NCBI GenBank assembly: GCA_028383305.1
Contig: JAOEVD010000010.1
Location: forward strand, 1 to 64,000
Reading direction: 5' to 3'
From: Candidatus Puniceispirillum sp.
Lineage (GTDB): Bacteria > Pseudomonadota > Alphaproteobacteria > Puniceispirillales > Puniceispirillaceae
Length of the DNA stretch: 64,000 nucleotides
Below are positions 1,626 through 26,331 of this stretch, piece after piece. Under the pieces are notes generated by a model that was not told the origin of the DNA, did no database searches, and saw nothing but the letters and a program-made list of their open reading frames with translations. Made by a program: the position numbers and the translations under genes. Every line of letters begins with the position of its first letter. The first letter of the stretch is position 1.

Positions 1626-2498
1626 ATGAAACCCGTTCGCTTTGACTATAAAAGACCCGCAACGATTGATGAGGCATGTGGCCTTCTTGCCGGCGATGAT
1701 AATGCGCGCATTCTGGCTGGCGGCCAGTCATTGATCCCGATGTTGTCGATGCGGCTGTCACGCCCGTCCTTGTTGATTGATATCGCGCATATCCCCGAAT
1801 TAACCACCTTTGTCGAAACCGAAACACATATTGAAATTGGCGCGATGGTGCGCCAAGCGGCGGCGCAGAAATCCGAATTGGTCAAAACGCATATTCCGCT
1901 TTTGGCAAAGGCGCTTGGCCATGTTGGCCATCCGCCAACCCGCGCGCGCGGCACGGTTGGCGGCTCGGTGGCGCATGCCGATCCTTCGGCTGAAATTGCG
2001 CTTGTTACGGCGACTTTGGGTGCGGAAATCACTTACCGTGTTGATGGCACCGATGAAATATTTGATGCGTCCGATTTTTTCATTGGCCCGATGTTGACCA
2101 TCGCGCCGCCAACCGGATGTTTGACGCGGTTGAGCTTTGCCAAGGCACCGGCGGTTTGCGGCACGGGCTTTCATGAGGTTGCCCCGCGCAAAAGCGATTA
2201 TGCGCTGGTATCTGCGGCTGCACAGATCAATTTTGCCGCTGGATCAGGCGTGACCAGCATCCATCTTGGCATTGGCTCGGTTGGCGATTTTCCCGAACGG
2301 TTGGATGTCAATAAGCTATGCGGCACGCCGCTTGATGATGCGGCAATTGCTGATGCAGTTCATGCGGCAATGCAGATGGTGGAAACGGTTGAAGATTTGC
2401 ACGCCACCGCAGCTTACCGCAAACGCGTCGCTACCGAATTGGCGATCCGCGCGCTTCGCGATGCGCGTGACGAAATATCAAAGGATCTAAACCAATGA
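1626..2498 (+). CDS. FAD-binding (medium) subunit of xanthine dehydrogenase-family hydroxylase
   Basis: CoxM-type flavoprotein subunit that passes electrons from the 2Fe-2S subunit to an acceptor. The 290 residues match the family's usual length. The FAD motif AGGQSLIPML lies near residue 35 and TVGGSVAHADPSAE near residue 110. It is the first gene of a tightly packed operon, and its stop overlaps the next start by four bases, suggesting coupled translation. Family membership is firm. The substrate is not set by this subunit, and the large subunit argues against CO. Confidence 0.88.
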   Translation: MKPVRFDYKRPATIDEACGLLAGDDNARILAGGQSLIPMLSMRLSRPSLLIDIAHIPELTTFVETETHIEIGAMVRQAAAQKSELVKTHIPLLAKALGHVGHPPTRARGTVGGSVAHADPSAEIALVTATLGAEITYRVDGTDEIFDASDFFIGPMLTIAPPTGCLTRLSFAKAPAVCGTGFHEVAPRKSDYALVSAAAQINFAAGSGVTSIHLGIGSVGDFPERLDVNKLCGTPLDDAAIADAVHAAMQMVETVEDLHATAAYRKRVATELAIRALRDARDEISKDLNQ

Positions 2499-3010
2499 AT
2501 GATGTGACCTTGACGATTAATGGCAAGCCAGTTTCGGGCGTGACCGAGCCGCGCGTTACCTTGCTGGATTTTCTGCGTGATGTTGCCGGATTAAAAGGCA
2601 CCCATGCCGGATGCGAACATGGTGTTTGCGGGGCGTGTACGGTGCTGATTGATGGTACCGCTGTTCGGTCTTGTTTGATGCTGGCGGTTCAGGCTGAGGG
2701 CGAGGATATCACAACGATCGAAGGCATTGGCGGGTCGGGTGCGCGCGCTGGTGAACTTGGTGTTATTCAAGATGCGTTTTGCGAAACACATGGCCTGCAA
2801 TGCGGCTATTGCACCCCGGGCATGATCTTGGCTGCCGAAGCGTTATTATCGGTTAATACAGACCCAACCGAACATGAAGTCCGCGAAGCCATTTCAGGCA
2901 ATATTTGCCGTTGCACCGGCTATGTTCAGATTGTCGACGCCATCCTGCTGGCGGCCAAACGTCTTGGCCAGCGCAATGATGCCGTGCCGTCCGATGCGAC
3001 TTTGGCTTAG
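2495..3010 (+). CDS. 2Fe-2S (small) subunit of xanthine dehydrogenase-family hydroxylase
   Basis: CoxS-type iron-sulfur subunit linking the molybdenum site to FAD. Both clusters have all their ligands: C40, C45, C48 and C60 for the plant-ferredoxin-type cluster, and C103, C106, C138 and C140 for the helical one (QCGYCTPG and ICRCTGY motifs). At 171 residues it is a complete small subunit. It sits between the FAD and molybdopterin subunit genes, overlapping the former by 4 bases and preceding the latter by 11. Confidence 0.92.
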   Translation: MNDVTLTINGKPVSGVTEPRVTLLDFLRDVAGLKGTHAGCEHGVCGACTVLIDGTAVRSCLMLAVQAEGEDITTIEGIGGSGARAGELGVIQDAFCETHGLQCGYCTPGMILAAEALLSVNTDPTEHEVREAISGNICRCTGYVQIVDAILLAAKRLGQRNDAVPSDATLA

Positions 3011-3021
3011 GGGTTTGATTC

Positions 3022-5400
3022 ATGACTGAACAGAAATATAAATTTCTTTCAACCCCGCGCCGTCCGGTTGAGGATCGGCGTTTTGTTGCTGGCCGCGGAA
3101 AGTTCATTGCCGATCTTGATCGGCCAAATATGCTTCATGTTGCGCCGCTGGCATCGCATCATGCGGCGGCGGTGATTAATGGCATTGATGCCAGTGCGGC
3201 GCTTGCCATGCCTGGCGTTGTGGATGTGATTACCGGGGCTGAACTTGCTGCCGCTGTCCAGCCCTTGATGAATGGGTTGAACACACCAAATGTTCGCCGG
3301 TTTCCGCTGGCGGTCGATCGGGTGCGCTATGCTGGTGAATGGGTTTGTGCCGTTGTCGCCGAAAGCCGCGCCTTGGCCGAAGATGCGTTGGAAAAAATCA
3401 TTGTTGATGCAACGCCGCAGCCTTTTATTCTGGATGCCGAAGCGGCATTGCTGGAGACCAGTGCGCCGGTTCACCCCGAACATGGCAGCAATTTGCTTCT
3501 TGACCGGAAATTTGTCTGGGGGCCGGTTGATGATGATTTTGACGCAGCCGCGCACAGCCTGTCATTTTCGGTGACATGGGGCCGCAATTCTACCGTGCCG
3601 ATTGAAACATTTGGCGTTCTTGCCGAATGGAATGGCTGGGATCAGATGCTTGATATCTGGGCGTCAATCCAGATGCCAAAATATGCTGATCAGATTGCCC
3701 GCAGCCTTGACCTGCCAGGCAATGCCATTCGGGTGCATTATGATGTTGATGTTGGTGGCAGCTATGGCGTGAAACGCGGCATCAAACATTCGGTGCTGGT
3801 TGGTTATGTCGCGCGTAAACTTGGCTGTCCAGTTCGCCTGATTGAAGACCGGCTGGAAAATATGCGGGCTGGTGACGCACATGGGCCGGAACGCAAATTT
3901 GATATCACAATTGCCTTTGATCAAGATGGTACGGTTCGATCAATGAAAATGCGCGCGCTTGATAATGCCGGTGCCTATGCTGGCCGAGCGCCATTCCAGC
4001 TTGGCAAGCCAATCAGCGCCATTGTTGGCCCTTATCAAATCAATTCGGTGGCCTATCATGCGCTGTCGGTAACAACCAATAAAACGGTTCAAGAAGCGGT
4101 TCGCGGCTTTGGCCAAGCGCCAACCAATTATGCGATTGAAACCGCGATGGATCGGGTTGCCAAATATCTTGGCATGGATCGGCTGGCATTGCGTCAGAAA
4201 AACCTAATCCGCAAAGATCAATTCCCCTATCTCATTCCAAGTGGCAGCTATTATGATAGTGGCGATTATCATGCGGTAATTGATAAGGTTCTTGCTGCTG
4301 CTGATTATCCGGCAATGCTTGCCGAACGCGACCGGCTTCGCGATGCGGGGATGATGGCCGGTATTGGCATTGCTGCCTGCCTTGAGCCAAGCGGTGGCAA
4401 TTCGTCATTCGAGCCGTTGCTGAATCAAAGCAATCAGACATCAACATGGATGGAATCCTGTCAGGTCAATATTGACGCGCTTGGCAAGCTGACAGCACGA
4501 ATTCACACAACATCATCGGGTCAAGGCCATGAAACGCTTGTGTCAACCGTGCTTGGCGAAGTCATGCAGATTGATCCGGAATTGATTCGCATCACCCGGC
4601 CTAATTCGCTGGAAAGCCTGCCGGGAAATTCACCGGTTGGCAGTCGTATGGCAATTATGCTTGGCGGTGCTGCGGCGCGGGCGGGTGAAAAGCTAAAAGC
4701 CAAAATCATGGCCATTGCGGCGCACCGGCTTGGCGTTGCCATTGACCAGCTTCGCTATGAGGGTGGTGACGTCCTGGCGCATGATGGCCGCCGGTTTACA
4801 TGGGATGAAATGGTTGAACTGGCGCATCGCCAATATCACAATCTTCCCGATGGAATGGATCCGGGGCTTGCCAGTTTTGATATTATGCAAGTGCCAACCG
4901 GCGATGCCTTGCCGGTTGATGACAAGGTGCAGATGTATCCTTGCTATTCATTCGAATTTCACCTTTTGCTGGTGTCCTTTGATCCGATTATTGGCCGTCC
5001 CGATATTCATTCCTATGTCATTGGCCATGATTGTGGAACGGTGATTAATCCGGCGATTGTTAGCGGCATGACCTATGGCGGTATCGCGCATGGCATTGGG
5101 GCGGCGCTGTTTGAAGAATTTGCCTATGACACTAATGGCCAGCTTTTGACGCAAAGTTTTCTTGATTATCTGATGCCATCGTCACATGAGGTGCCCGCGA
5201 TCCAGATTGTCAAACATTGCACGCCGTCACCCCATACGGTTTTTGGCCAGAAGGGATCGGGTGAAAGCGGTTATCTTGGGGCACCTGCCGCTGTGTCAGC
5301 TGCGATTAATGATGCGGTTTCCGGCCTTGGTATCCATTTTGAAAAACTGCCAATTCGCATGAGTGCAATTAGCGATGCCATTGCCGCAAAAACATCTTAA
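3022..5400 (+). CDS. Molybdopterin (large) subunit of xanthine dehydrogenase-family hydroxylase, not form I CO dehydrogenase
   Basis: Catalytic subunit that would hydroxylate an organic substrate at a molybdenum-cytosine-dinucleotide-type site. The 792 residues start with a PRRPVEDRRFV segment typical of CoxL-like proteins. The active-site loop reads AVRGFGQ at residues 359-365, where CO dehydrogenase form I has AYRCSFR with the copper-binding cysteine. The catalytic glutamate is present as E748 in GSGESG. The loop resembles xanthine or N-heterocycle dehydrogenases more than CO dehydrogenase. No XdhC or CoxD-F maturation gene occurs in the window, so maturation must be encoded elsewhere. The substrate is unknown. 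Confidence 0.88.
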   Translation: MTEQKYKFLSTPRRPVEDRRFVAGRGKFIADLDRPNMLHVAPLASHHAAAVINGIDASAALAMPGVVDVITGAELAAAVQPLMNGLNTPNVRRFPLAVDRVRYAGEWVCAVVAESRALAEDALEKIIVDATPQPFILDAEAALLETSAPVHPEHGSNLLLDRKFVWGPVDDDFDAAAHSLSFSVTWGRNSTVPIETFGVLAEWNGWDQMLDIWASIQMPKYADQIARSLDLPGNAIRVHYDVDVGGSYGVKRGIKHSVLVGYVARKLGCPVRLIEDRLENMRAGDAHGPERKFDITIAFDQDGTVRSMKMRALDNAGAYAGRAPFQLGKPISAIVGPYQINSVAYHALSVTTNKTVQEAVRGFGQAPTNYAIETAMDRVAKYLGMDRLALRQKNLIRKDQFPYLIPSGSYYDSGDYHAVIDKVLAAADYPAMLAERDRLRDAGMMAGIGIAACLEPSGGNSSFEPLLNQSNQTSTWMESCQVNIDALGKLTARIHTTSSGQGHETLVSTVLGEVMQIDPELIRITRPNSLESLPGNSPVGSRMAIMLGGAAARAGEKLKAKIMAIAAHRLGVAIDQLRYEGGDVLAHDGRRFTWDEMVELAHRQYHNLPDGMDPGLASFDIMQVPTGDALPVDDKVQMYPCYSFEFHLLLVSFDPIIGRPDIHSYVIGHDCGTVINPAIVSGMTYGGIAHGIGAALFEEFAYDTNGQLLTQSFLDYLMPSSHEVPAIQIVKHCTPSPHTVFGQKGSGESGYLGAPAAVSAAINDAVSGLGIHFEKLPIRMSAISDAIAAKTS

Positions 5401-5480
5401 CCCCTTTTTGATTTGATCTAAGGCGCGCCCTTTCATTCATCAATTCACCACTTCATTCATTCACTGCGAGACCAACCCAA

Positions 5481-6455
5481 ATGATTATCGACAGCCATGC
5501 CCATTTCATTCCGTCAAGCCTGCTTGCCGCGATTCAGGATCGCGCTGGCGAATTTGCCGCGCTTTCGCTTATCCATGATGAGTCAGGCAGTTTCGGCTTT
5601 TCCTTTGCCGGCAGCAAGCCAACACGCCCTGCCAGTAAAATGCTGTCAGATACGAAGGGGCGGCTTGAATGGATGGATGCCAATCAGATTGACCGGCAGG
5701 TGATTGGTGGCTGGCTTGATATGTTTGGCTATGAATTGCCGGTTGATGAAGGCCAGCGCTGGTCGGCCATGATCAATGAACATCTTGGTCAGTTCTGCGC
5801 CGAAAATGATCGGTTTCTGCCGCTGGCAAGCCTGCCGATGCAGAATGGCATTGCCGCGGCAACGGTTCTTGATCAGGCGCATCAAAACGGGTTTAAGGGT
5901 GCCATGATCGGCACCCAGCCAAAGGGCAAGGGCGGCGTTCTTGATGATCCTGAATTGACCCCATTTTGGGAATCGGCGCATCGCAATGGATCGGTTTTAT
6001 TCATTCATCCGGTGTTTGATTCAGGCGATGATCGGGTCAATGATTATGGCATGAATAACGCGATTGGCCGCATAACCGATACCTTGATTGCGATTTCACG
6101 GATCATCTATTCAGGACATGTTGAAACCTATCATAATGCCAAGATTGTCATTGGTATTGGGGGGTCGGCATTACCGTATGTTCTTGGCCGGATGATGCGA
6201 AATTACAATCTTCACAAAGATACACTTGCCGATCCGTCAAAGGCATTATCAATGCTGTATTACGACACTTTGCTTCATGATCCAGACGCATTGGCCTTTT
6301 TGATTCGCGCGGTTGGGATTGACCGTATCATGCTTGGATCGGATATGCCGTTTCCGATTGGCGACCCATCGCCTCTTGCTGTTCTTGAAGGGCTGGATAT
6401 GGCCGACCGCAACAAGCTGGTCAATGGCGTTGCCAGCCAGCTATTTGGGCTTTGA
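5481..6455 (+). CDS. ACMSD-type amidohydrolase family protein
   Basis: Amidohydrolase-2 family TIM barrel of 324 residues. The family includes 2-amino-3-carboxymuconate semialdehyde decarboxylase and non-oxidative aromatic decarboxylases. The N-terminal metal-binding pair H6-x-H8 sits in DSHAHF, a later His is in FIHPVFD, and the C-terminal metal Asp is in LGSDMPFP. It lies in the molybdenum hydroxylase cluster after an 80-base gap without a clear Shine-Dalgarno. A decarboxylation or hydrolysis step after ring hydroxylation is a reasonable inference; the actual substrate cannot be read from the sequence. Confidence 0.8.
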   Translation: MIIDSHAHFIPSSLLAAIQDRAGEFAALSLIHDESGSFGFSFAGSKPTRPASKMLSDTKGRLEWMDANQIDRQVIGGWLDMFGYELPVDEGQRWSAMINEHLGQFCAENDRFLPLASLPMQNGIAAATVLDQAHQNGFKGAMIGTQPKGKGGVLDDPELTPFWESAHRNGSVLFIHPVFDSGDDRVNDYGMNNAIGRITDTLIAISRIIYSGHVETYHNAKIVIGIGGSALPYVLGRMMRNYNLHKDTLADPSKALSMLYYDTLLHDPDALAFLIRAVGIDRIMLGSDMPFPIGDPSPLAVLEGLDMADRNKLVNGVASQLFGL

Positions 6456-6494
6456 TCCGCTGCGATCCAATCAGATGAGTCGAGGAGACATATC

Positions 6495-6944
6495 GTGAAT
6501 ATTGAGTTGAATGGCAGCGAGCAAATCAATACCAGTCCGGCAAATCTGTGGGAGTCGGTTATTGATCCGGTGGTTTTGCAACGCGCGATTCCGGGTTGTA
6601 TCAGCATGACCGAAACCGGCGAAGGTCAATATCAAATGACCTTGGAATTGAAAGTGGCGGCGGTTGGTGGCAGTTTTGAAGGGGCGGTGTCGCTTTCCGA
6701 AATGAACCCACCGCATAGCTGTATCATTACCGTGTCGGGAAGCGGCACGCTTGGCACAGGTGGTGGCAATGCCACTGTTGCCATTACCGAAGGCGATGAT
6801 GGCAATGCGCTGATTTCCTATCAGGCACAAGGCGAGGTGAGCGGGCTTGTTGCCGGTGTCGGCCAGCGGATTTTGATGGGGGTTGCCAAACATCTGGCAC
6901 GCCAGTTCTTTACCGCTTTGAAAAAGGAATTTGCCGCAGCCTAG
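6495..6944 (+). CDS. CoxG-like SRPBCC protein
   Basis: 149-residue START/SRPBCC-fold protein of the CO dehydrogenase subunit G family, seen in VIDPVVLQRAIPGC near the N-terminus and the glycine-rich SGSGTLGTGGG stretch. CoxG of carboxydotrophs recruits the hydroxylase to the membrane; here the basic C-terminal region near residues 128-146 could do so. The start is a GTG preceded by AGGAG at 6483-6487. Its place in the cluster supports a shared role with the three-subunit hydroxylase. Confidence 0.85.
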   Translation: MNIELNGSEQINTSPANLWESVIDPVVLQRAIPGCISMTETGEGQYQMTLELKVAAVGGSFEGAVSLSEMNPPHSCIITVSGSGTLGTGGGNATVAITEGDDGNALISYQAQGEVSGLVAGVGQRILMGVAKHLARQFFTALKKEFAAA

Positions 6945-7007
6945 TTATCGCGGCCAGCCGTGATCAGTCTATCCAGTCGTGATCAGTTATTTATGGAGAG
7001 CATTTTG

Positions 7008-8669
7008 ATGAAAACCTATGATGTGGTTGCAGCCGCAATTGAGGCACAGGAAACAGGGCATTGTTTTGCGCTTCTTGGTGATGGCAATATGCATTTTGCC
7101 GGTGCGCTTGCCCATCTTGGCATGCCCTTTACCTATGCACGGCATGAACATTGCGCGGTATCGATGGCGATGGCCTATGCGCGGGTGACAGTACGCCCCG
7201 GTCTTGCCACGGTAACTTGTGGCCCTGGTCTGACGCAGGTGATGACCGGTCTTGCTGCCGCCGTGCGGGCGCGCATCCCGCTGGTGTTGTTTGTTGGCGA
7301 ATCGCCACTTCGCAATTCATGGTATAATCAGGAGATTGACCAAGCCCCCTTTGTGACCGCTTGCGGTGCGGAATATGTTCGTATCTTGCACAAGCCGCGG
7401 ATCACGCGGCAGATCCAAGATGCTTTTGCGCGGACGCAAATGACCGGCATTCCGATTGTGATTGGCATGCCATTTGACCTTCAGGAAAGTGACTGGGGCG
7501 ATCTTGCCTGTAAAGTTGAAAAGGCGGCTGATCTGATACCTGCCGTTGGCAAGATGTTTCCCGATCCGGCAAATGTAACCTCAATCGCGGCGATGGTGGC
7601 GGCGGCAAAAAAGCCGGTGATCATTGGCGGGCGCGGTGCAATCGCAGCCGATGCTGGGCCTTCTTGTATGCGCCTTGCTGATCATATTGGCGCTATATTG
7701 CTAACCACCCTTCCGGCGCGTGGTCTGTTTCATCAATCGGCGCATTCGCTGAATGTGGTTGGGGGGTTTGCTTCGGATACGGCACGCGAGGCCTGTCTTG
7801 ACGCTGATCTGATCATTGCCGTTGGCACGAGTCTGGCATCGCATTCGGCCGATGCTGGCAAGCTTTATCCAAATGCCAAAATCCTGCATATCGATACCAA
7901 ACCGGTGGTCTATAGTCAGGGACGTGTTGCCGCGCATTTTCATTTATGTGCCGATGCCAAAATTGGTGTTGATGCGCTTATCAGCGAAATTGAAACCAGC
8001 CATGGCACAGCAGCAGCCGACAATAGCTGGCGCAATGCATTGGTCGCCAAACAGGATGCGGCCGAATATCCTGATGCCATGCCGTTTCAGGTTGCCCCTG
8101 ATGTTCTTGACCCGCGCGCGATGATCAAGGCGCTGGATCAGAAATTGCCCAAAGACTGGTTCATGGTGAATTCATCCGGCCATTGCTCTTATTATGCTGC
8201 GCATATGACTGGCCGTTCATCTGATGCGTTTTTGACCATCCGCGAATTTGGCGCGATTGGAAATGGCCTGTCTTATGCCATTGGTGTTGCTGCGGCACGC
8301 CCTGAAACACAGGTTGTTTTGATTGATGGTGATGGTGGATTTTTAATGCATGCACAAGAGTTGGAAACTGTTGCGCGTCATGGAATCAAGCTGTTGATGA
8401 TTGTGATGAATGACGCGGCTTATGGGTCAGAAATCCACAAATTGCGCGTTGACGGCCATGACGAAGATGGTGCCGCCTTTGGCGCAACCGATCTTGCATC
8501 AATGGCGCGGGGCTTTGGCCTTGGCGGCGTGTCTTTCCGCAATCTTGATCATCTCGATTCGGCTTATGATGAATTTATCGCATCAGATAAAGCGGCTTTA
8601 TGGGATTTTCATATTTCGGATCAGGTGGTCTCGCCAGTGATGCGCCGTCTGACTGCTGCCAAAAAATAG
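7008..8669 (+). CDS. Thiamine-diphosphate-dependent enzyme, acetolactate synthase/benzoylformate decarboxylase-like
   Basis: 553-residue enzyme with all three ThDP-enzyme domains. The cofactor-activating glutamate is E47 in RHEHCA. The central domain has IIGGRGAIA, and the ThDP/Mg motif begins with GDG at 441-443 and continues to NDAAYG. An in-frame GTG at 6960 exists, but the ATG at 7008 has GGAGAG just upstream and gives a normal N-terminus. It is the last gene of the cluster. Family relatives decarboxylate or ligate 2-oxo acids, and a 2-oxoacid decarboxylase acting on a product of the hydroxylase pathway is one reading. The exact reaction is undetermined. Confidence 0.8.
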   Translation: MKTYDVVAAAIEAQETGHCFALLGDGNMHFAGALAHLGMPFTYARHEHCAVSMAMAYARVTVRPGLATVTCGPGLTQVMTGLAAAVRARIPLVLFVGESPLRNSWYNQEIDQAPFVTACGAEYVRILHKPRITRQIQDAFARTQMTGIPIVIGMPFDLQESDWGDLACKVEKAADLIPAVGKMFPDPANVTSIAAMVAAAKKPVIIGGRGAIAADAGPSCMRLADHIGAILLTTLPARGLFHQSAHSLNVVGGFASDTAREACLDADLIIAVGTSLASHSADAGKLYPNAKILHIDTKPVVYSQGRVAAHFHLCADAKIGVDALISEIETSHGTAAADNSWRNALVAKQDAAEYPDAMPFQVAPDVLDPRAMIKALDQKLPKDWFMVNSSGHCSYYAAHMTGRSSDAFLTIREFGAIGNGLSYAIGVAAARPETQVVLIDGDGGFLMHAQELETVARHGIKLLMIVMNDAAYGSEIHKLRVDGHDEDGAAFGATDLASMARGFGLGGVSFRNLDHLDSAYDEFIASDKAALWDFHISDQVVSPVMRRLTAAKK

Positions 8670-8680
8670 ATGAGGATTAC
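8666..8680 (+). repeat. Left copy of imperfect direct repeat flanking the AT-rich island
   Basis: ATAGATGAGGATTAC overlaps the stop codon of the ThDP enzyme gene. A near copy, ATAGATGATGATTTAC, lies at 15055-15070 just beyond the other edge of the island. They differ by one substitution and one inserted T. The match may be chance or an insertion scar. Confidence 0.35.
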
Positions 8681-8689
8681 TGTAAACTT

Positions 8690-9952
8690 TTACTCTAAAA
8701 TTGAGTGAGGTGGGTCAAGAAATGTTGGGTCGGTGGTAATTATTCCTTTTTCATGGAGAGCGACTATTTCACTTTTGTCCAGACCACAGATAGTTGTTAG
8801 AATTTCTTCATTGTGTTCGCCCAAAAGTGGCGCTACGAGATCATCGTTGTGAGACCACTTTGAGAATATTGGAGGCTGGCCAGGTATTGGAAACTTGCCA
8901 ATATGCGGGTCGTTTATTTGTCGTATTGCGCCTCGTTGGATGGCATGGGGGTGGTTGATCGCTTCTTGCAATGTTAGGACTGGAGCAACCGGCACGCGTT
9001 CCCTCTTTAATATATTAAGAATTTCTTGCCGGTTACCAATCTTTGCCATCCATTTTTCAATAATACCTTGCAACTCATATTTGTTTTTACGCCTGTTTTG
9101 AGGCGAGTCGAACCTGGTATCTTTTTCTAGTTCAGGCATGCCGATGGCCTGCAAGAGCCTTGGCCATTGGTAAGGCATGATCATCATTTGTAAAAATGAA
9201 CCGTCGCCACATTCAAAAATGCCGGTTGGCCCACCGTTTGGATGTTGAGATCCCGACCGCTCTGGTGACGCAGCGTCGCCTCTTAACCCAACCCGTGGAA
9301 TATAGTCCTCATGCATCTGAAGGTATGTATCTAATAATGAACAATCGATAAATTGCCCTTCGCCTGTTCTCTCTCGATGTAAAAGTGCAACTGCAATGGC
9401 CATTGCTGCTGAAATTCCAGTCGCGCTGTCCCCAACTGCCATACTCACTTGACTTGGTGGACGACCATTCTCGCCAATCATCTCTGTAATGCCAGCATAT
9501 GCTGCGGCCATATAGTCAAAGCCGGGCTCGTTCGCCAATGGACCTTCTTGACCCGCAAAAGATATTGAACACATAACAATTCTAGGATTAATTTTTACTA
9601 CCTCATCATACGCCAACCCCAATCGACCTATTACGCCAGGGGCAAAGTTTTCCACAAGGACATCTGATCGTTTAATAAGTTTTTTGATCAGTGCCTGTCC
9701 CTCGTTGGATTTAAGATTAATCGCTAAACTGCGCTTGGAGTGGTTATGCTGAGCAAAATATGTGCTTTGTGTACTGTTTGCATACCCTTTTTTACGTGAT
9801 TTAAGGCCAGACCTCCTAGCGTGATCGCCGATTGGCGTTAACTCTACTTTTATGACATCTGCCCCAAGTTCAGCCATAAGTCGCGAACATGTTGGGCCCG
9901 CAACAAATTGAGTGATGTCTAGTACCCGATATCCACAAAGCATTTTGCCCAT
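8690..9952 (-). CDS. CaiB/BaiF (class III) CoA-transferase, island copy 1
   Basis: Class III CoA-transferase of 420 residues that would move CoA between carboxylic acids. The N-terminal motif LDITQFVAGPTCSRLMAEL leads to GADVIKVE, and the likely catalytic Asp lies in MAVGDSATG. An upstream in-frame TTG overlaps the preceding stop, but the ATG at 9952 follows AGAGGG and gives the usual family start. It is the last gene of a four-gene minus-strand operon and only 20 bases from the convergent ThDP gene. Codons are much richer in A and T than in the left-hand cluster. The substrate is unknown. Confidence 0.85.
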   Translation of the reverse strand: MGKMLCGYRVLDITQFVAGPTCSRLMAELGADVIKVELTPIGDHARRSGLKSRKKGYANSTQSTYFAQHNHSKRSLAINLKSNEGQALIKKLIKRSDVLVENFAPGVIGRLGLAYDEVVKINPRIVMCSISFAGQEGPLANEPGFDYMAAAYAGITEMIGENGRPPSQVSMAVGDSATGISAAMAIAVALLHRERTGEGQFIDCSLLDTYLQMHEDYIPRVGLRGDAASPERSGSQHPNGGPTGIFECGDGSFLQMMIMPYQWPRLLQAIGMPELEKDTRFDSPQNRRKNKYELQGIIEKWMAKIGNRQEILNILKRERVPVAPVLTLQEAINHPHAIQRGAIRQINDPHIGKFPIPGQPPIFSKWSHNDDLVAPLLGEHNEEILTTICGLDKSEIVALHEKGIITTDPTFLDPPHSILE

Positions 9953-9975
9953 GGTTTTTTTACCCTCTGATTTTG

Positions 9976-10680
9976 TCAAATATTTGTGGGGTTACCAAAA
10001 AGTGTTTGCCACGCGTCCCCTTCAGGTTTTTGACCGCTCTTGCCGATTTTTTCACTCATTACTGAAAGGCCACGTTGCACTGCTGGCCTCTCTCTAATGG
10101 AATTGTACCATCGCTGAATATTGGGATGTTTAGAAATATCTTGCCCTTGTAATTTTTGAGGCCTAAGCCAGGGATAAACAGCAATGTCGGCGATACTGTA
10201 ATCTTCCCCACCCAAATATTTAGATTTACCTAATCTGGTGTCGAGGACAGCGTAGACCTTACTAGCCTCGTTTGTGTATCTTTTAATTGCATATTCAACT
10301 GTTTCTTTGGCGTAATGCCGGAAGTGGTGTGCTTGCCCTAGCATTGGCCCCACATTTCCCATTTGAAACATTAGCCACTGGATCACATCTAGCTTTGTTG
10401 TGGAGTCGGTCTCAAGAAATTGGTTATATTTTTCTGCTAGGTAAAGTAAAATAGCACCTGATTCGAACACCGATATTTGACGCTTGGTATCTAAAGTATC
10501 AGTGATTGCGGGGACTTTTCCATGTGGGCTAAGTTGTAAAAAATTTCTCGCAAACTGTTCGCCCTTGCCAATGTGGACTGGATAAATGTTGTATGGAACT
10601 TTTAACTCTTCCAGCAAAATGCTAACTTTGTAGCAGTTAGGTGTAGGCCAAAAAAATAGAGTAATCTTACCTTTTTTCAT
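9976..10680 (-). CDS. YfcG/YghU-type glutathione S-transferase
   Basis: 234-residue GST with an N-terminal thioredoxin fold and an all-alpha C-terminal domain. WPTPNCYKV, FESGAILLYLAEKY, GPMLGQAHHF and GGEDYSIADIAVYPW closely follow the nu-class YfcG pattern, whose members use glutathione for disulfide reduction or peroxide chemistry. The start overlaps the stop of the upstream isomerase gene in an ATGA, so the two are probably translationally coupled. In this operon a glutathione-dependent isomerisation, reduction or conjugate-removal step on the catabolic substrate is inferred. Base usage is AT-rich like the rest of the island. Confidence 0.85.
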   Translation of the reverse strand: MKKGKITLFFWPTPNCYKVSILLEELKVPYNIYPVHIGKGEQFARNFLQLSPHGKVPAITDTLDTKRQISVFESGAILLYLAEKYNQFLETDSTTKLDVIQWLMFQMGNVGPMLGQAHHFRHYAKETVEYAIKRYTNEASKVYAVLDTRLGKSKYLGGEDYSIADIAVYPWLRPQKLQGQDISKHPNIQRWYNSIRERPAVQRGLSVMSEKIGKSGQKPEGDAWQTLFGNPTNI

Positions 10681-11288
10681 GATCTGTCACTTTTAGCCAG
10701 CCCTGCGTTCGCTAAGGTTTCTTCAAGCAACCAGATTCTATCTGCGCCCCAGAATTGCTCGCCATTGAATACAAAAATTGGTACTCCAAAAATATGATCG
10801 TCTGCCGCTTCATCTAAGCACGCTTCAAATTCCACGGCGCCGTCGCCCTCAAGAAACGTAAGGTATTCCTTTTTTGATAGTCCAATATGTTCAATAAGTT
10901 TCGAAACCTCCTCTATCTCATCTGCTGCAAACTCACGTTTGAAGAATGACTCAAATAACGTCATGCAATATTCTTCGAGCTTTTTATGCTTTTCGGCAAA
11001 GAGGCTGCCAATCAATGATGGTGTTGTGTCAAAAATTTTTAGAGGTCCTCGTAACATTTGACCATCATAAAGCCGATTTGCGTGACGACGTGCATCCATA
11101 TAGGAATATTTTACCTTCCATTCTGAGTAAATACTGCGCTGGCCTTTGCCCTTCAGTCGTAATTGGAACGGGCGCCATTTAATATTGACGTTGTATTTTC
11201 TCGCCAGCTCAATCCCAGGCTTGAACGCCAAAAATGCATATGGGCTCTTAAAATCAGAGTACATTTTGACTACAGGTTTTTGATCCAT
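10677..11288 (-). CDS. 2-hydroxychromene-2-carboxylate isomerase family (kappa-GST/DsbA-like) protein
   Basis: 203-residue DsbA-fold protein. The active-site serine lies in DFKSPYAF near the N-terminus, in place of the CxxC of DsbA. The cis-Pro loop appears as GVPIFVFNGEQFWGADR near the C-terminus. This is the pattern of 2-hydroxychromene-2-carboxylate isomerase, a glutathione-dependent enzyme of naphthalene breakdown. An in-frame ATG at 11345 exists, but the ATG at 11288 is preceded by GAGAGGA and starts right at the fold. Family assignment is good; the isomerised substrate here is unknown and need not be aromatic. Confidence 0.83.
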   Translation of the reverse strand: MDQKPVVKMYSDFKSPYAFLAFKPGIELARKYNVNIKWRPFQLRLKGKGQRSIYSEWKVKYSYMDARRHANRLYDGQMLRGPLKIFDTTPSLIGSLFAEKHKKLEEYCMTLFESFFKREFAADEIEEVSKLIEHIGLSKKEYLTFLEGDGAVEFEACLDEAADDHIFGVPIFVFNGEQFWGADRIWLLEETLANAGLAKSDRS

Positions 11289-11328
11289 GAATGATCCTCT
11301 CTTGGTGATAGTTAATAACAAGACCTCG

Positions 11329-12573
11329 TCAAGCGTTACCTTCACTGCTGAGCCAGCTTTCCATTATTTCTTTGAAATGTTCGTTGGGTTTTGGCGCTGG
11401 GTTGTCGAGGGTTATTTTAGATCCTGAAAATTTGATTGGAAAGTTTGCAGCTAGAGGACCTCTCATATTGGTAAAATATGGGTGTGGGAGTGGCGTGAGG
11501 ATCTCCCGATCAGTGATTTGTTTCCACTCCGCAATTTGCGCAATATCATTGACTGGGTGACACGGGATCTCATGATTTTCGCACAACCTTGCAATTTCAT
11601 CGACAGTGCGTGTGCTTGTCCAAATGCTTATTATTGTATCAATTTCAGAGTTGTTTTCGATACGTTTACTTATGCTTGAAAATTTGTCTTCATATTGTAA
11701 ATCTGCTTGGCCAATCATTCTCAGAATTGAAATCCAATCTTTTTCCGATGCAGCGCCCAATACAACTGTACCGTCTTTTCCAGCGTAGCAATTAAATGGA
11801 GAAAATCGCATTATCCGATTACCTTGTCTTTTCTTCAGCCCCAAAGCCTCGAAACAATCCCAGGGCTCATCGTATAATAAAGAAACAAGACAGTCGGTCA
11901 TTGAAACATCAATATATTCTCCAAGCCCCGTTTTTTCACGTCGGAAAAGGCTGGCAAGTATTCCAGAGAAGGCAAATGTGCCAGCTATAGTGTCAGCCAT
12001 TGAAGATCCGATCTTCATTGGCAAGCCATCCGGTTCACCGGTTATACTCATCAGCCCAGAGGCAGCCTGAACGGTCGCGTCAAATGCTTTCTTGGACGCA
12101 TCCGGGCCAGTTGCGCCAAAACCTGTAATTGAGCAATATATTACTTTTGGGTTTTTTGATTTTAGTTGTTCATAATCGATTTTTAATCGCTTAGTCACGC
12201 CAACTCGAAAGTTCTCAACTATTACGTCAGCTTTCTCTGCTAGGCGCAAAAAGGTGTTTAGACCTTCCGCGCTCTTTAAATCTAGTTCAATAGATTTCTT
12301 TGACCGTGCACGTTTTAAATAGGCAATACCAATATCTAATGGCGATGCCTTTGACATTGAAACGCCATCTTTACCAAAAAAAGGTGGTGAATTTCTAACA
12401 GGGTCACCTTGATTTGGATCATCTATTTTTACAACTTCTGCACCAAGCGCACTTAGAAAAAGAGTTGTCTGTGGGCCGGATAGGTATCTGGTAAGGTCCA
12501 AAACCTTGATGCCACTCAGAGCTCCTTTATCAGCGATTTTGTCGTCTTTAATTGCATCTGTTTGATTAAGCAT
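11329..12573 (-). CDS. CaiB/BaiF (class III) CoA-transferase, island copy 2
   Basis: First gene of the minus-strand island operon, 414 residues. The family N-terminus reads KVLDLTRYLSGPQTTLFLSA with GAEVVKIDDP, and the probable catalytic Asp is in GSSMADTIAG. It differs clearly from the copy at 8690-9952, so the two are not a recent duplication. They may act on different acids, or on activation and release of one pathway's intermediates. It is divergently arranged with a LysR regulator only 58 bases away. Confidence 0.85.
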   Translation of the reverse strand: MLNQTDAIKDDKIADKGALSGIKVLDLTRYLSGPQTTLFLSALGAEVVKIDDPNQGDPVRNSPPFFGKDGVSMSKASPLDIGIAYLKRARSKKSIELDLKSAEGLNTFLRLAEKADVIVENFRVGVTKRLKIDYEQLKSKNPKVIYCSITGFGATGPDASKKAFDATVQAASGLMSITGEPDGLPMKIGSSMADTIAGTFAFSGILASLFRREKTGLGEYIDVSMTDCLVSLLYDEPWDCFEALGLKKRQGNRIMRFSPFNCYAGKDGTVVLGAASEKDWISILRMIGQADLQYEDKFSSISKRIENNSEIDTIISIWTSTRTVDEIARLCENHEIPCHPVNDIAQIAEWKQITDREILTPLPHPYFTNMRGPLAANFPIKFSGSKITLDNPAPKPNEHFKEIMESWLSSEGNA

Positions 12574-12595
12574 CCCATTACAAAACCAGATATGA

Positions 12596-12616
12596 ATAGA
12601 AATTACAAAATTTTAT
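12596..12616. promoter_or_regulatory. Candidate LysR operator in divergent intergenic region
   Basis: The 58 bases between the CoA-transferase and the LysR gene hold a 21-base imperfect dyad, ATA...TAT, centred on ACAAA, of the T-N11-A kind LysR proteins bind. The region is so AT-rich that such a match is weak evidence. Position is the main argument. Confidence 0.3.
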
Positions 12617-12631
12617 TGATAAGATTTTTGT

Positions 12632-13567
12632 ATGCCAAAATCGAATGACAATGAATTTGACCCTGTTTCCGCTCCTAATCTAAGCATGAGGCATTTTAAG
12701 GCTATAATTAGCCTAACTAATTTCAAAAGCTTTTTGGCTGCTTCAGCTTATTTAAGAATTTCACAACCCGGTTTAACAAGAATAATACAGCAAGCTGAAC
12801 AAAGACTTGGTTTTATTCTTTTTGAACGTGGCGCTAAGTCCGTTACGCTCACCGCTGTCGGCAAAGAGTTTTTGCCATTTGCGGAAACAACTTTACGTGA
12901 ATTTGCGCAAAAGACGAATAAGTTGAGGCTTAACCACTACGAGGAGCGTCCAAAGCTCACCATTTCCTGCCTGATGTCTGTATCTCACGTTATTTTACCG
13001 AGTGTCATAAAAGAGTTCAAAACATATCACCCAAACACCTTGATCGAAATTTATGAAGGGGTGGGTGGCTTCATATCTGATGCGGTCATCGACGGCAAAG
13101 TTGATTTTGGGATTGGCAGTTCTGAATTCTATCCAAAAGCCGTTTCACTAGTTGATGAAGTGGAGGAGAAGTTTGTAGCAGTAATGCCCAAGCGCCACGA
13201 TCTCGCGAAGCTGAGTGCTATCACCTTGCAGAATATTGGTCACTTACCTCTTGTTTCTATGCCACCAAGCTCTGGTATTAGGCAGCTTATTGACGCTGAA
13301 GCCTTGAAGGTTGGTTTAATACTGAACCACGAGATCACGACAAATCAGTATAATACGATGTTCAAATTTATTTTGGCTGACCTTGGTGTGTCTATTGTGC
13401 CTGTTTCAGTTGTTAGGGAACTGGATAAATCCCAATTCTGTGTGAAAACAATTGAGCCAGTAATAAACAGAAAACTTGCGGTGCTAATTCGGTCGGATCA
13501 AATTTTGGGTGATGCATCAAAACAATTTTTAAAGTTGCTTTTGCCAAATCTTAAAAATATTTCTTAA
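12632..13567 (+). CDS. LysR-family transcriptional regulator
   Basis: 311-residue regulator. A winged helix-turn-helix at about residues 18-80 contains FLAASAYLRISQPGLTR and the FERGAKSVTLTAVG wing. The periplasmic-binding-like effector domain follows, ending in a typical C-terminal lobe. It is divergent from the four-gene CoA-transferase/GST operon and converges on the MFS gene, so it most likely controls the operon in response to a pathway compound. The gene is among the most AT-rich in the window. Confidence 0.87.
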   Translation: MPKSNDNEFDPVSAPNLSMRHFKAIISLTNFKSFLAASAYLRISQPGLTRIIQQAEQRLGFILFERGAKSVTLTAVGKEFLPFAETTLREFAQKTNKLRLNHYEERPKLTISCLMSVSHVILPSVIKEFKTYHPNTLIEIYEGVGGFISDAVIDGKVDFGIGSSEFYPKAVSLVDEVEEKFVAVMPKRHDLAKLSAITLQNIGHLPLVSMPPSSGIRQLIDAEALKVGLILNHEITTNQYNTMFKFILADLGVSIVPVSVVRELDKSQFCVKTIEPVINRKLAVLIRSDQILGDASKQFLKLLLPNLKNIS

Positions 13568-13590
13568 TCAAATTTATTTATAAAAATTGC

Positions 13591-14904
13591 CTAAACGATT
13601 TTGTTCTGCCTTATGCCAGGTATGAGCCAAAACATAGATAACCCAACACAAAGAAAGAGGAGGCTGATGCCAAATCCAGCAGAGTAGCTTCCGGTTAAAT
13701 CATAGCTATATCCAGCTAAAAAAGCTCCAATCGCTGCACCGCATCCATTTCCAACACCAGTAGCTCCAAAAATTGAGGCAAGACCGCGTCCAGCGAATAG
13801 CTCGCCCATTTGTGCTGTGATGATGGGACCACGGGCACCAGCAGATAACCCAAAACATGTAATAAAGACAACGAGCAGAGTCCAGTTCTGATCCAGTTGT
13901 AGACATGCTAACGCTAGAATACCAACAGCTGTAAGCGTATAGCTGCCTGTTGCTATGATATGGCGCGGAAAACGTTCGGCGAGGATGCCTGTGATGGCGA
14001 TGCCCAAAATTGTTAACATACCGGTAAGGCCATAGGCAAAGGCAGCTGAAATGGGATCAAACTTATGATCAATTAGGTACGCAACTGTTTGCAGTGAGAC
14101 CCCAAAAACTGCAATTGCTGTAGCGCCAAAAATGGTGAAAAAGCCCCAAAATTCTCTCCGTCTAACTGCCTCACTCAAAGACAAACCGTTGTTAGTGAAT
14201 TCGGGTTTTGTCGGGCTGCTATCTGGCATCAAGCTCTGGGAGGTAGGTTTTGCACCTGCGGAGATGCTTGCCCAAGGGAGAAGTAAAACCAAGCAAAGAA
14301 TAAAGATGAACCCATAGCTTGCGAACATATATGCATCTTGCCAGCCTGCTACTTCGATGACCATTTGCGCCGCTGGTACCAGCATCATCACGCCTATTCC
14401 CTGGCCTGAATAAGCAACAGAGAGTGCCGTAGAACGTTTGCGGGTAAACCAGCGCAAAATCAGGCTTTGCGTTGGCACTATTCCAACCATTGCGGCACCG
14501 ACACCGCCACAAACACCAAGTACAAGATAAAAAGAAATTATTGAGTTTAAATGGCCAGCAAAACCATAGCATCCGGCTAAAAGAGATAAGCCTATTATGT
14601 AGTTGAATCGTGGTCCTATGCGATCAAAAACCAGCCCTGAAATCAATGATCCAAACCCAAAAAATATCATATAGACCGAAAAAATTGATGTTACACTGGC
14701 CCTGCTCCATTCAAAACTTTCTGTCAAAGGTAGCAGAAAAACACCGTAGGTTTCACCCATACCACGGCTAACACCAATCATAAAAAGGCAAAAAGCTAAT
14801 ACTGCGAGCGGAGCAAGGGTATATTGCTGCAGGCGTGGTGTGTTTAATGTCATGTCAAAAAATAATCCAAGCAGATTGCCCCGGGTATCTTGGCCTGAGA
14901 ACAT
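13591..14904 (-). CDS. MFS transporter, oxalate/formate antiporter or monocarboxylate type
   Basis: 437-residue carrier with twelve predicted membrane segments and an A-motif-like loop DRIGPRFNY after the second helix. A central hydrophilic loop around residue 220 ends in SLSEAVRRREFW, typical of the OFA/monocarboxylate carrier group. The start may instead be the internal ATG at 14853; neither has a clear ribosome site. It is transcribed toward LysR at the island's right end, with a stop only 23 bases from the LysR stop. Uptake of the carboxylic acid processed by the CoA-transferase operon is inferred. Confidence 0.83.
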   Translation of the reverse strand: MFSGQDTRGNLLGLFFDMTLNTPRLQQYTLAPLAVLAFCLFMIGVSRGMGETYGVFLLPLTESFEWSRASVTSIFSVYMIFFGFGSLISGLVFDRIGPRFNYIIGLSLLAGCYGFAGHLNSIISFYLVLGVCGGVGAAMVGIVPTQSLILRWFTRKRSTALSVAYSGQGIGVMMLVPAAQMVIEVAGWQDAYMFASYGFIFILCLVLLLPWASISAGAKPTSQSLMPDSSPTKPEFTNNGLSLSEAVRRREFWGFFTIFGATAIAVFGVSLQTVAYLIDHKFDPISAAFAYGLTGMLTILGIAITGILAERFPRHIIATGSYTLTAVGILALACLQLDQNWTLLVVFITCFGLSAGARGPIITAQMGELFAGRGLASIFGATGVGNGCGAAIGAFLAGYSYDLTGSYSAGFGISLLFLCVGLSMFWLIPGIRQNKIV

Positions 14905-15013
14905 AGTAGTGTTGATAGGGGTAAGGTATAATTCAGTTAAAAACTAGAGACTAATTCTTGGCTTTTCTGTACCAAAACGCAATTAACTTTTTTTCAAAAA
15001 AAAATCAGATAAA

Positions 15014-15026
15014 TTAGTGAAACTAA
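15014..15026. repeat. 13-base perfect inverted repeat between MFS and dehydrogenase genes
   Basis: TTAGT-GAA-ACTAA is a perfect short dyad in the 214-base AT-rich gap between the divergent MFS carrier and the dehydrogenase. It could be an operator half-site pair. The surrounding A and T runs make chance matches likely. Confidence 0.25.
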
Positions 15027-17637: not shown

Positions 17638-18798
17638 CTAGGCACGTTGATTGAACCGTCTGCCAACAAGCGCGGCGGCGATATTGATTTTCTGAATATC
17701 AATTGATCCGCCAGCAATGCCCCATCCCCATGCGTCACGCATTTTCTGTTCCATCGGATATGATTTCGAATAGCCATAGCCACCCATAAGCTGTACGGCG
17801 GCGCTGGCAACCTCGCGGGCAATTTCATTGGCATAGCATTTCGCGATTGAACTATCGGCAATTGACGGCAGTTCCTGTTCGGCATTATTGACCGCGCGGT
17901 AAAGCAACAGCCGCGCCGCATCAAGCTTCATCTTCATCTGTGCAATTTGCAATTGGACAGCCTGAAAATCAATGATTGGCTTGCCAAATTGTTCGCGTTC
18001 TTGAACATAGGCAAGCGCGTAATCAAAGGCAGATTGACCACAAGCAAGGCTCATTGTTGTATTGCCGCAACGCTCAAGATCGAAGGCTTCCATCAATTGT
18101 TTAAAGCCACCCGCTGGAACAATGATATTGTCGGCAGGCACTTCAACATTATCGAAATACATATCGGCGCTTGAAATGCCGCGCCAGCCCATATGTGATT
18201 CCGGTGCACCAAAGCTAAATCCATCCGTACCTTTTTCAACCAGGACCGCGCCAATGCCCTTGGCACCGGGCGCATCGGAAAGGCGGCAATAGACAACATA
18301 GGCATCAGCATGACCGCCGCCTGAACACCAGCGTTTATTGCCGTTCAAAGTGATTTTATCACCATCGCGTTTGCCGGTTGTTTTCAAATCGGTTAGCGCG
18401 GTACCAGCCTGCGGTTCCGACATTGACACGGCAACAACCATTTCACCTGAACAGACTTTGGGAAGGATACGCTGGCGAAGCGCCTCGGGTGCAAAATGCG
18501 CAATGGCCAAAGCTGGACCAAAGCTGGCCTCAAATACCGGAAAGGCCACCGCAACCGAAATTTTTGCCAATTCTTCGAGGATCAGCACTGCCTCAAAATG
18601 CCCAAGGCCAGCGCCGCCATATTCGGTTGGCAGATTAATGCCCATAAAGCCCATTTCGGCAAAGCGTTTGCGAAGCGCCAGTGTTGGCGGTGTATCATTT
18701 TCTTCAATGGCTTTTGCATGGGCTGGCAATTCATCCGCGGCAAAGCGGCGTGCGGTGTCTTGAAGCATTTTCTGTTCAGCGGTAAGCGAAAAATCCAT
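17638..18798 (-). CDS. Acyl-CoA dehydrogenase with isovaleryl-CoA-dehydrogenase-type base position
   Basis: FAD-dependent alpha,beta-dehydrogenation of an acyl-CoA. The 386 residues have the normal three-domain layout with SMSEPQAGTALTDLKT, RWCSGGGHAD and REQFGKPI signatures. At the usual catalytic position (YEGT in medium-chain enzymes) this protein has A362-G363-G364-S365. A glutamate, E242 in FDLERCGN, occupies the place used as base by isovaleryl-CoA dehydrogenases, which suggests a branched or bulky acyl-CoA. The in-frame ATG at 18912 is rejected because the family start MDFSLTAEQ is at 18798. It is divergent from a CoA-transferase. Confidence 0.88.
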   Translation of the reverse strand: MDFSLTAEQKMLQDTARRFAADELPAHAKAIEENDTPPTLALRKRFAEMGFMGINLPTEYGGAGLGHFEAVLILEELAKISVAVAFPVFEASFGPALAIAHFAPEALRQRILPKVCSGEMVVAVSMSEPQAGTALTDLKTTGKRDGDKITLNGNKRWCSGGGHADAYVVYCRLSDAPGAKGIGAVLVEKGTDGFSFGAPESHMGWRGISSADMYFDNVEVPADNIIVPAGGFKQLMEAFDLERCGNTTMSLACGQSAFDYALAYVQEREQFGKPIIDFQAVQLQIAQMKMKLDAARLLLYRAVNNAEQELPSIADSSIAKCYANEIAREVASAAVQLMGGYGYSKSYPMEQKMRDAWGWGIAGGSIDIQKINIAAALVGRRFNQRA

Positions 18799-18823
18799 AA
18801 TATATCCATGTATTTGAGATGAT

Positions 18824-18877
18824 GGCAGGCCGGATAGCACCACCATATTTTGTAAATTAGCTAATGGTAAGCCTGCC
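18824..18877 (-). promoter_or_regulatory. Long hairpin in the leader of the acyl-CoA dehydrogenase gene
   Basis: On the minus strand GGCAGGC TTACCAT (14 continuous bases) pairs with ATGGTGG, a 9-base bulge, then GCCTGCC, 25 bases before the ATG. Two G-U pairs exist only on this strand, so the structure suits the acyl-CoA dehydrogenase leader better than the plus-strand gene. The loop region includes the palindrome ATTAGCTAAT. It could be an RNA control element or a DNA operator. Confidence 0.45.
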
Positions 18878-19009
18878 AATTTTCCCATAGGCTGTAAATT
18901 GAAAATCAGCAAGTTTACGCAATATGGTTAGTTTGAGATGCTTTGCCCACATCGCCCAAAGACGGCAAATCAGCAGATGCCCGTCAATCTGGCCAGCACA
19001 ACAGGATGA

Positions 19010-20248
19010 ATGATGACGAATAACAATACGCCGATGGCGCTTGCCGGCATTAAAGTGCTTGATCTTAGCCGGATTCTGGCTGGCCCCTATGCTGCCCAGA
19101 TGTTTGCCGATCTTGGCGCAGATGTGGTGAAGGTTGAAAACCCCGATGGCGGCGATGACACGCGCAAATGGGGGCCGCCTTTTACCAAAAATGCCGATGG
19201 CAGCCGCGATGATGCTGCCTATTTCAGCGCATGTAACCGGAATAAACGGTCGGTGACGATTGATTTTTCAACCAAAGACGGTGCTGATCTGGTTCGGCAA
19301 TTGGCGGCCAAAGCCGATATTTTGATCGAGAATTTCAAACCTGGTGGATTGCAAAAATACGGTCTTGATTATGCGTCAATCGCCGCCTTTAATCCGGGGA
19401 TCATCTATTGTTCGATCACTGGCTTTGGTCAGACCGGCCCCTATTCGCACCGATCAGGATATGATTTTTTAGTTCAGGGCATGGGCGGGTTGATGAGCAT
19501 TACCGGCCAGCCCGATGGCAGCCTGGGCGGCGGCCCGATGAAGGTGGGGGTTGCGGTCTGTGATTTATTCACCGGAATGTTTGCCGCCAATGCAGCCCTT
19601 GCAGCCTTGGCCTATCGCAGCCGTACCGGCATTGGCCAGCATATTGATTGCGCGCTTCTTGATAGCCAGATTTCGATGCTGGCAAACCAATCGGCAAATT
19701 GGCTGAATGCCGAAACATGCCCTGATCGTATGGGCAACAGCCATCCAAGTGTTGTTCCCTACACTGTTTATGAGGCCAAGGACGGATTTGTGATTATCGC
19801 CTGCGGAAATGACAAGCAATTCATCCGTTTGACAGCGGCGCTTGGGATTCCGGCGCTGGCGGATGATGATGATTTTGCCAGCAACGAAGCCCGCATCAAA
19901 AACCGCGACCGTCTTGATGCGATGCTTAGTGATATCATTGCCAAGCTGGATCGTGTTCAGGTGATCGACAAGCTGGAAACAGCCGGTGTGTCTTGTGGCC
20001 CGATTAATGATATTGCCGAAGTCTTTGCCGACCCACATGTCAAGGCACGCGGCGCGCGCATTGATCAGCAGCGTGACGATGGCAGCCAGATTTCGTCAAC
20101 CGCCTTTGCCGCCAAACTTGGTGTGACACCAGCGCAATATCGCACCGCGCCGCCGCGCCTTGGCCAGCATAATGATCAGGTCATGCAGGAATGGGCGGGT
20201 CTTGGTGCCGATGCGGTTGCAGCATTGCGTGCCGCCAAGGTTATGTGA
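19010..20248 (+). CDS. CaiB/BaiF (class III) CoA-transferase, third copy
   Basis: 412-residue CoA-transferase with KVLDLSRILAGPYAAQMFAD, GADVVKVENP and the probable catalytic Asp in AVCDLFTG. Two ATGs are in tandem at 19010 and 19013; AGGA at 19003-19006 is better spaced for the second. Codon usage matches the host, unlike the two island copies. It is divergent from an acyl-CoA dehydrogenase, so activation of an acid followed by alpha,beta-dehydrogenation is a likely two-step pair. Confidence 0.86.
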   Translation: MMTNNNTPMALAGIKVLDLSRILAGPYAAQMFADLGADVVKVENPDGGDDTRKWGPPFTKNADGSRDDAAYFSACNRNKRSVTIDFSTKDGADLVRQLAAKADILIENFKPGGLQKYGLDYASIAAFNPGIIYCSITGFGQTGPYSHRSGYDFLVQGMGGLMSITGQPDGSLGGGPMKVGVAVCDLFTGMFAANAALAALAYRSRTGIGQHIDCALLDSQISMLANQSANWLNAETCPDRMGNSHPSVVPYTVYEAKDGFVIIACGNDKQFIRLTAALGIPALADDDDFASNEARIKNRDRLDAMLSDIIAKLDRVQVIDKLETAGVSCGPINDIAEVFADPHVKARGARIDQQRDDGSQISSTAFAAKLGVTPAQYRTAPPRLGQHNDQVMQEWAGLGADAVAALRAAKVM

Positions 20249-25965: not shown

Positions 25966-26331
25966 TTGATTGATCAGGCGAACCGCCAGTTTGGATTTAG
26001 ATCATGTCTTTATATAGTTGTTGCTGGCTTTTGGCTTGTCAGCGGCATGATGCAAGCTATGGCAAATTCTGACTGGCTTGATGCATCATTAAAAGCGGCG
26101 CTACAGGCAACGATGACCCACTTTATTGATAATGCGTCTGATGATGAGGGTGGATTCCACTATATTGAACGGCAAAGCGGCGCTTTAATGACCGCCTATC
26201 CTGGCGTTATCCATCCCAAAATCATTCCTTTTGGTGACGATTATTTTTTATGTATCGATATGTTGGCGGCGAATGGAACAAGGCGGCTGGTTGATTTTCT
26301 GGTTCGCGAAGGGCGCGAAGGCTGGATTTAG
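25966..26331 (+). CDS. Small exported hypothetical protein (TTG start)
   Basis: 121 residues, not recognised. The start appears to be TTG, with GGGGA nine bases upstream. An N-terminal hydrophobic segment (CLYIVVAGFWLVSGMMQAMA) looks like a signal peptide cleaved near AMA-NS. The mature part is about 85 residues, acidic, with the GGFHYIERQSG and FLCIDMLAANGTRR stretches. The stop overlaps the convergent rhodanese gene by four bases. Confidence 0.6.
   Translation: MIDQANRQFGFRSCLYIVVAGFWLVSGMMQAMANSDWLDASLKAALQATMTHFIDNASDDEGGFHYIERQSGALMTAYPGVIHPKIIPFGDDYFLCIDMLAANGTRRLVDFLVREGREGWI

Follow-up and report, generated by a model that had tools for sequence, protein, structure and literature searches.

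Family III CoA-transferases are encoded together with glutathione enzymes in the isoprene and styrene degradation clusters, isoGHIJ of Rhodococcus AD45 and Variovorax WS11 and styGHIJ of Gordonia. In these, a glutathionyl acyl-coenzyme A (CoA) intermediate and reductive removal of glutathione (GSH) as its disulfide (GSSG) have been proposed: the CoA-transferase IsoG is thought to link CoA as a thioester to a glutathionylated acid, and the glutathione S-transferase (GST) IsoJ to strip glutathione from that acid as GSSG, with no assay demonstration of either step yet reported in these papers (PMC9804861, PMC10057887). Here we describe an operon that may use a similar chemistry, found in a 64,000-nucleotide stretch of Candidatus Puniceispirillum sp. 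DNA (contig JAOEVD010000010.1, positions 1 to 64,000; the window). Like the isoprene and styrene clusters, it combines a CoA-transferase of the Frc-type family III with glutathione enzymes, and lies on mobile DNA, and, as in Gram-negative degraders, it has an upstream LysR gene (PMC9804861, PMC10057887). In contrast to them, it encodes two CoA-transferases rather than one and a kappa-GST-type protein where they have a second cytosolic GST, follows a different gene order and has no linked monooxygenase or dehydrogenase. The four open reading frames, named g1 to g4 in order of transcription, lie on the minus strand where a preliminary description of this DNA had placed them, and the identities given there hold by Pfam, NCBIfam and catalytic residues:

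11329..12573, minus strand: g1, family III CoA-transferase A; CoA_transf_3 (Pfam), catalytic Asp194 in SSMADT
10677..11345, minus strand: g2, 2-hydroxychromene-2-carboxylate (HCCA)-isomerase/kappa-GST-type protein; DSBA (Pfam), Ser34 in SPY; probable start ATG 11288
9976..10680, minus strand: g3, Nu-class (YfcG-type) GST; GST_N/GST_C (Pfam), Thr13/Asn15, Tyr123
8690..9979, minus strand: g4, family III CoA-transferase B; CoA_transf_3 (Pfam), catalytic Asp184 in AVGDS; possible start ATG 9952

The four genes had been described as overlapping or abutting on one strand. The common strand and a 4-base overlap of g2 with g3 stand; the overlap of g1 with g2 is doubtful because most g2 orthologues begin at the position equivalent to ATG 11288, upstream of which lies GAGAGG. 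The GTG start at 11345, which creates that overlap, is thus probably wrong, and with the ATG start the gap between g1 and g2 is ∼40 bases. The start of g4 may likewise be ATG 9952 instead of TTG 9979.

g2 was found in 9 of the 136 genomes of the order, all nine of them SAR116 (Candidatus Puniceispirillum and SAR116 cluster bacteria are among the matches with names), and around it the order g1-g2-g3-g4 recurred every time, at three sites, with a single decayed copy (G014). The proposal that the genes form one functional unit, for which recurrence of the four-gene neighbourhood in other genomes had been suggested as a check, is borne out in that the genes always co-occur, within SAR116 only. Across the copies, the pairwise distance matrices of the four proteins correlate with r of 0.97–0.99, and dN/dS values of 0.03–0.17 indicate purifying selection; the unit is therefore inherited and selected as a whole. 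In the decaying G014 copy (L022:8481-10969), g1 is split, g3 and g4 are cut off and g2 is intact.

The module is also a horizontally transferred unit, as it occupies three unrelated sites, is A+T-rich and is missing from a near-identical relative. In that relative, G006, the flanks are 98.5% and 96.0% identical to those of the window, and positions 8669-15026 are unmatched apart from part of a gene for a major facilitator superfamily (MFS) carrier; a 6.36-kb island with sharp borders replaces the 1.55 kb that hold the MFS gene in G006. GC content is 0.40–0.46 inside the island and 0.51–0.53 outside, and that of g1–g3 is ∼0.40–0.47 in every host. G028, from another genus, carries the module and LysR gene in a different neighbourhood, with a recJ-like gene and an aminotransferase nearby as judged from a look at the sequence. 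In G110, from a third genus, the module lies near the gene of a quinone oxidoreductase of PIG3 type, which scores 480.6 bits against a cut-off of 296.8, and has no LysR and no MFS gene with it. The outermost copies share 50–70% protein identity, which argues against a single recent event for all copies. Beside the module of G110, a low-GC stretch (L076:3991-8339) encodes a GAF-adenylate/guanylate cyclase, a cyclic-nucleotide-binding-like protein and the PIG3-type enzyme, and stretch and module are perhaps one larger island.

Outside SAR116, the g2 profile found no close relative and no module in 385 class genomes and 398 phylum genomes, and the plasmids and viral contigs searched held no module. 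Scanning 84,980 species genomes for a motif returned seven loci, each of them among the nine known copies. As class and phylum were covered by samples and the motif pattern was a strict one, a rare distant donor may exist. The best g2 relatives in the class sample were ∼34–41% identical, and across all outside searches identities were 30–41% or there was no match; one such locus has a distant CoA-transferase one gene away. Profile searches with g1 and g4 elsewhere found distant single or tandem CoA-transferases only, with no GST nearby. Other alphaproteobacteria carry tandem g4-like family III CoA-transferases (loci L102, L105, L111), which score 340–420 bits against the g4 profile. Our literature searches found no CoA-transferase and glutathione-enzyme operon in SAR116 in open papers, in line with the earlier statement that no described pathway has this gene order. 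The cassette thus appears undescribed, but its enzyme logic has apparent precedents in the isoprene and lignin-ether pathways. As a candidate undescribed system it stands as a conserved unit, yet one that is narrower in range and more mobile than had been supposed; its restriction to SAR116, its transfer and the IsoG/IsoJ precedent had all gone unremarked.

Both g1 and g4 match CoA_transf_3 over their full length (E 4.5e-104 and 3.8e-109, respectively). Asp194 of g1 aligns with the catalytic Asp of PDB entries 10uh, 4ed9 and 9br6, and Asp184 of g4 with that of 9br7 and 10uh; each is kept in all copies sampled. Both are therefore family III CoA-transferases with an intact catalytic residue, predicted from sequence to transfer CoA, in a family whose mechanism runs through an acyl-Asp intermediate (PMC9196870). 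Orthologues are 54–96% identical for g1 and 64–91% for g4, whereas the two proteins are only 27% identical to each other, no nearer than to other CoA-transferases of the genome. Neither reaches an NCBIfam equivalog cut-off, and therefore no substrate can be transferred to them from a known enzyme.

g2 matches DSBA (E 1.8e-21) and, by profile, the HCCA isomerase 2imd (9.2e-16). It carries SPY at residue 34, has no CxxC and contains just two isolated cysteines (127 and 176), so that a DsbA-like fold is combined with a serine in place of the redox cysteine. The serine of SPY and a GxDR motif, the latter also present in 2imd and kappa GSTs, are kept in all g2 copies sampled. An AlphaFold (AF2) model with a mean confidence (pLDDT) of 88.9 gave the HCCA isomerases 3fz5 and 2imd as best fold matches, followed by FrnE-type oxidoreductases and kappa GSTs. 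The protein thus resembles NahD (HCCA isomerase) and kappa GSTs in fold, active-site serine (SPY/SPF) and GxDR motif, but is only ∼22–24% identical to solved members and has a conserved block of its own, LRLKGKGQRSIYSEW; unlike for NahD, no aromatic ring-cleavage genes were seen in the flanks examined around the module. We assign it to the HCCA-isomerase/kappa-GST type as the probable class, within which sequence alone cannot separate isomerase from transferase.

g3 matches GST_N and GST_C, and its nearest NCBIfam models are YfcG and YghU, with scores under the equivalog cut-offs; it is 47% identical to Escherichia coli YfcG and 37% to YghU. Nu-class GSTs are glutathione lyases (PMC5892560), in which, for NaGSTNu, Tyr 166 and Tyr 224 are both critical for glutathione removal. 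The glutathione-activating Thr13 and Asn15 (the T-x-N, here T-P-N, motif) were present in seven of seven copies aligned. g3 also has a conserved Tyr123 equivalent to YghU Tyr167, the catalytic tyrosine of these lyases, which is missing in E. coli YfcG. The second lyase tyrosine (YghU 225) and its loop are absent from g3, as they are from YfcG, which has weak lyase activity despite this. In contrast to NaGSTNu, YghU and YfcG, g3 is encoded in an operon with CoA-transferases, and no lignin etherase genes were seen around it.

The elements by which the cassette may be controlled and supplied lie upstream of g1, and are listed here with the island that holds them:

12613..12622, no strand assigned: TTATTGATAA, probable LysR operator within the divergent promoter of g1 and the LysR gene; same place in five of five LysR-bearing copies
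12632..13567, plus strand: divergent LysR-type regulator; library match, linked in five of nine module copies
13591..14904, minus strand: MFS carrier of the monocarboxylate/oxalate-formate type; library match, resident of the site, swapped along with the island
8669..15026, no strand: low-GC island, standing in place of 1.55 kb in G006

Library matches confirmed that the LysR and MFS genes noted earlier are real. That the unit has a regulator of its own agrees with the linked LysR gene and box in five of nine copies: TTATTGATAA, for which chance would give 0.17 occurrences per 64-kb window, is absent upstream of g1 in LysR-less copies, and we regard it as a probable, putative LysR operator. 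A second exact TTATTGATAA lies at 26123-26132, outside the operon region. The view that an MFS carboxylate carrier completes the set did not hold: G006, G004 and G008 lack the operon but have an MFS gene at this site (66–68% identical to that of the window), and two of the nine module copies have none beside them. We do not count the MFS among the core genes of the module, since it is resident at the site in relatives that lack the operon. In the lineage of G005 and G013, an MFS gene is found on the strand of g1, 26 bases upstream of it, where it may have been recruited as carrier. The MFS of the window and the native MFS of G006 share only 66% identity, but that of G010 (L018:6087-7403) is 83% identical to the first and 81% to the second, and looks like a recombinant of the two.

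Elsewhere around the operon, positions 1626-8669 encode molybdenum-hydroxylase CoxM/S/L-like proteins, an amidohydrolase, CoxG and an acetolactate-synthase-like thiamine pyrophosphate (TPP) enzyme, a block that is conserved across most of the genus; the G005/G013/G014 lineage retains the TPP gene alone, adjoining a class III aminotransferase. The TPP-enzyme and carbon monoxide dehydrogenase-like genes were rejected as pathway partners, because relatives that lack the operon have them and they are missing next to two of the copies. At 17638-20248, an acyl-CoA dehydrogenase gene is divergent from a third family III CoA-transferase gene (432 bits to Pfam), possibly a glutaryl-CoA dehydrogenase and succinate-glutarate CoA-transferase pair.

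Together, these data suggest a model, to which we give an about even chance, where a LysR-controlled cassette, exchanged horizontally among SAR116, processes an organic acid as a CoA thioester as well as a glutathione adduct. One of the two CoA-transferases would activate the acid with CoA via its catalytic Asp, with succinyl-CoA, for example, as the donor; g2, with a glutathione thiolate activated by its serine, would add GSH to, or isomerise, an electrophilic and probably unsaturated acyl group; g3 would then use a second GSH to take the glutathione off as GSSG, for a net reduction; and the other CoA-transferase would pass CoA on to another acid. In Puniceispirillum, the adjoining monocarboxylate-type MFS probably imports the acid. 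We infer the substrate class, the order of steps, the division of labour between g1 and g4, and catabolism rather than detoxification. Several observations weigh against this model. The transferred unit includes no dehydrogenase, oxygenase, hydratase or thiolase and therefore is not a whole catabolic pathway alone. MFS and LysR genes are each missing beside some copies, the nearest g2 relatives outside SAR116 are not beside GSTs or CoA-transferases of the g1/g4 type, and HCCA-isomerase-like proteins are mostly uncharacterised. Other Nu-class proteins, too, have a tyrosine at the lyase position (4l8e and 4eci alignments); it does not discriminate, so that Tyr123 would be permissive only of a lyase function. 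It is unlikely, on present evidence, that the cassette represents a new type of pathway, with glutathione chemistry on acyl-CoA and the two CoA-transferases as a closed relay, in which the product acyl-CoA gives its CoA to the incoming substrate and SAR116 bacteria use an electrophilic acid abundant in the sea without ATP cost.

The same genes could instead serve detoxification, a reactive (unsaturated or halogenated) acid or acyl-CoA being cleared by glutathione conjugation and removal while the CoA-transferases free trapped CoA. The presence in the moving unit of two glutathione enzymes but of no genes for downstream beta-oxidation, the PIG3-type neighbour in one host and a patchy presence that suits a conditional stress trait all agree with this; most copies, however, are accompanied by a carboxylate-type MFS and LysR, which is typical of nutrient use, and two dedicated CoA-transferases would be unusual, leaving detoxification a somewhat unlikely explanation. 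That g1 and g4 are subunits of one heteromeric CoA-transferase, with the GST genes providing a single glutathione step, seems improbable, although both this and detoxification carry weight as rivals. Two unlike family III proteins are always encoded together, as in the benzylsuccinate CoA-transferase BbsEF, and chains A and B of PDB 9fn0 set a structural precedent, but both g1 and g4 keep the catalytic Asp, their 27% identity is no closer than that to other CoA-transferases of the genome, and they stand at opposite ends of the operon, around which no benzylsuccinate genes were seen. A SAR116 version of the isoprene/styrene pathway is disfavoured and very improbable: the family III CoA-transferase, two glutathione enzymes and upstream LysR are held in common, yet neither a di-iron monooxygenase nor an IsoH-type dehydrogenase is linked to the module, g3 falls far under the IsoI cut-off (22 bits against 300), g2 has no match to that model, and the kappa/HCCA-type protein and doubled CoA-transferases do not fit. 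No isoABCDEF monooxygenase genes are linked to the module, and PF02332 gave no match in this 84% complete genome, a search that had no positive control. It is scarcely credible that the four are unrelated neighbours merely sharing an operon; SAR116 genomes have many family III CoA-transferases (13 matches here), so chance adjacency is conceivable, but the gene order is kept in nine genomes at three sites and the proteins have diverged in parallel, which speaks against it.

Little is known of the accessory metabolism of SAR116, although this lineage is abundant in the sea. With a compact, regulated and mobile four-gene cassette whose catalytic residues are intact, the substrate can be searched for with few enzymes. 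If the glutathionyl-acyl-CoA idea is true, the cassette would generalise the IsoG/IsoJ step that, in the papers cited, has so far just been proposed in isoprene degradation.

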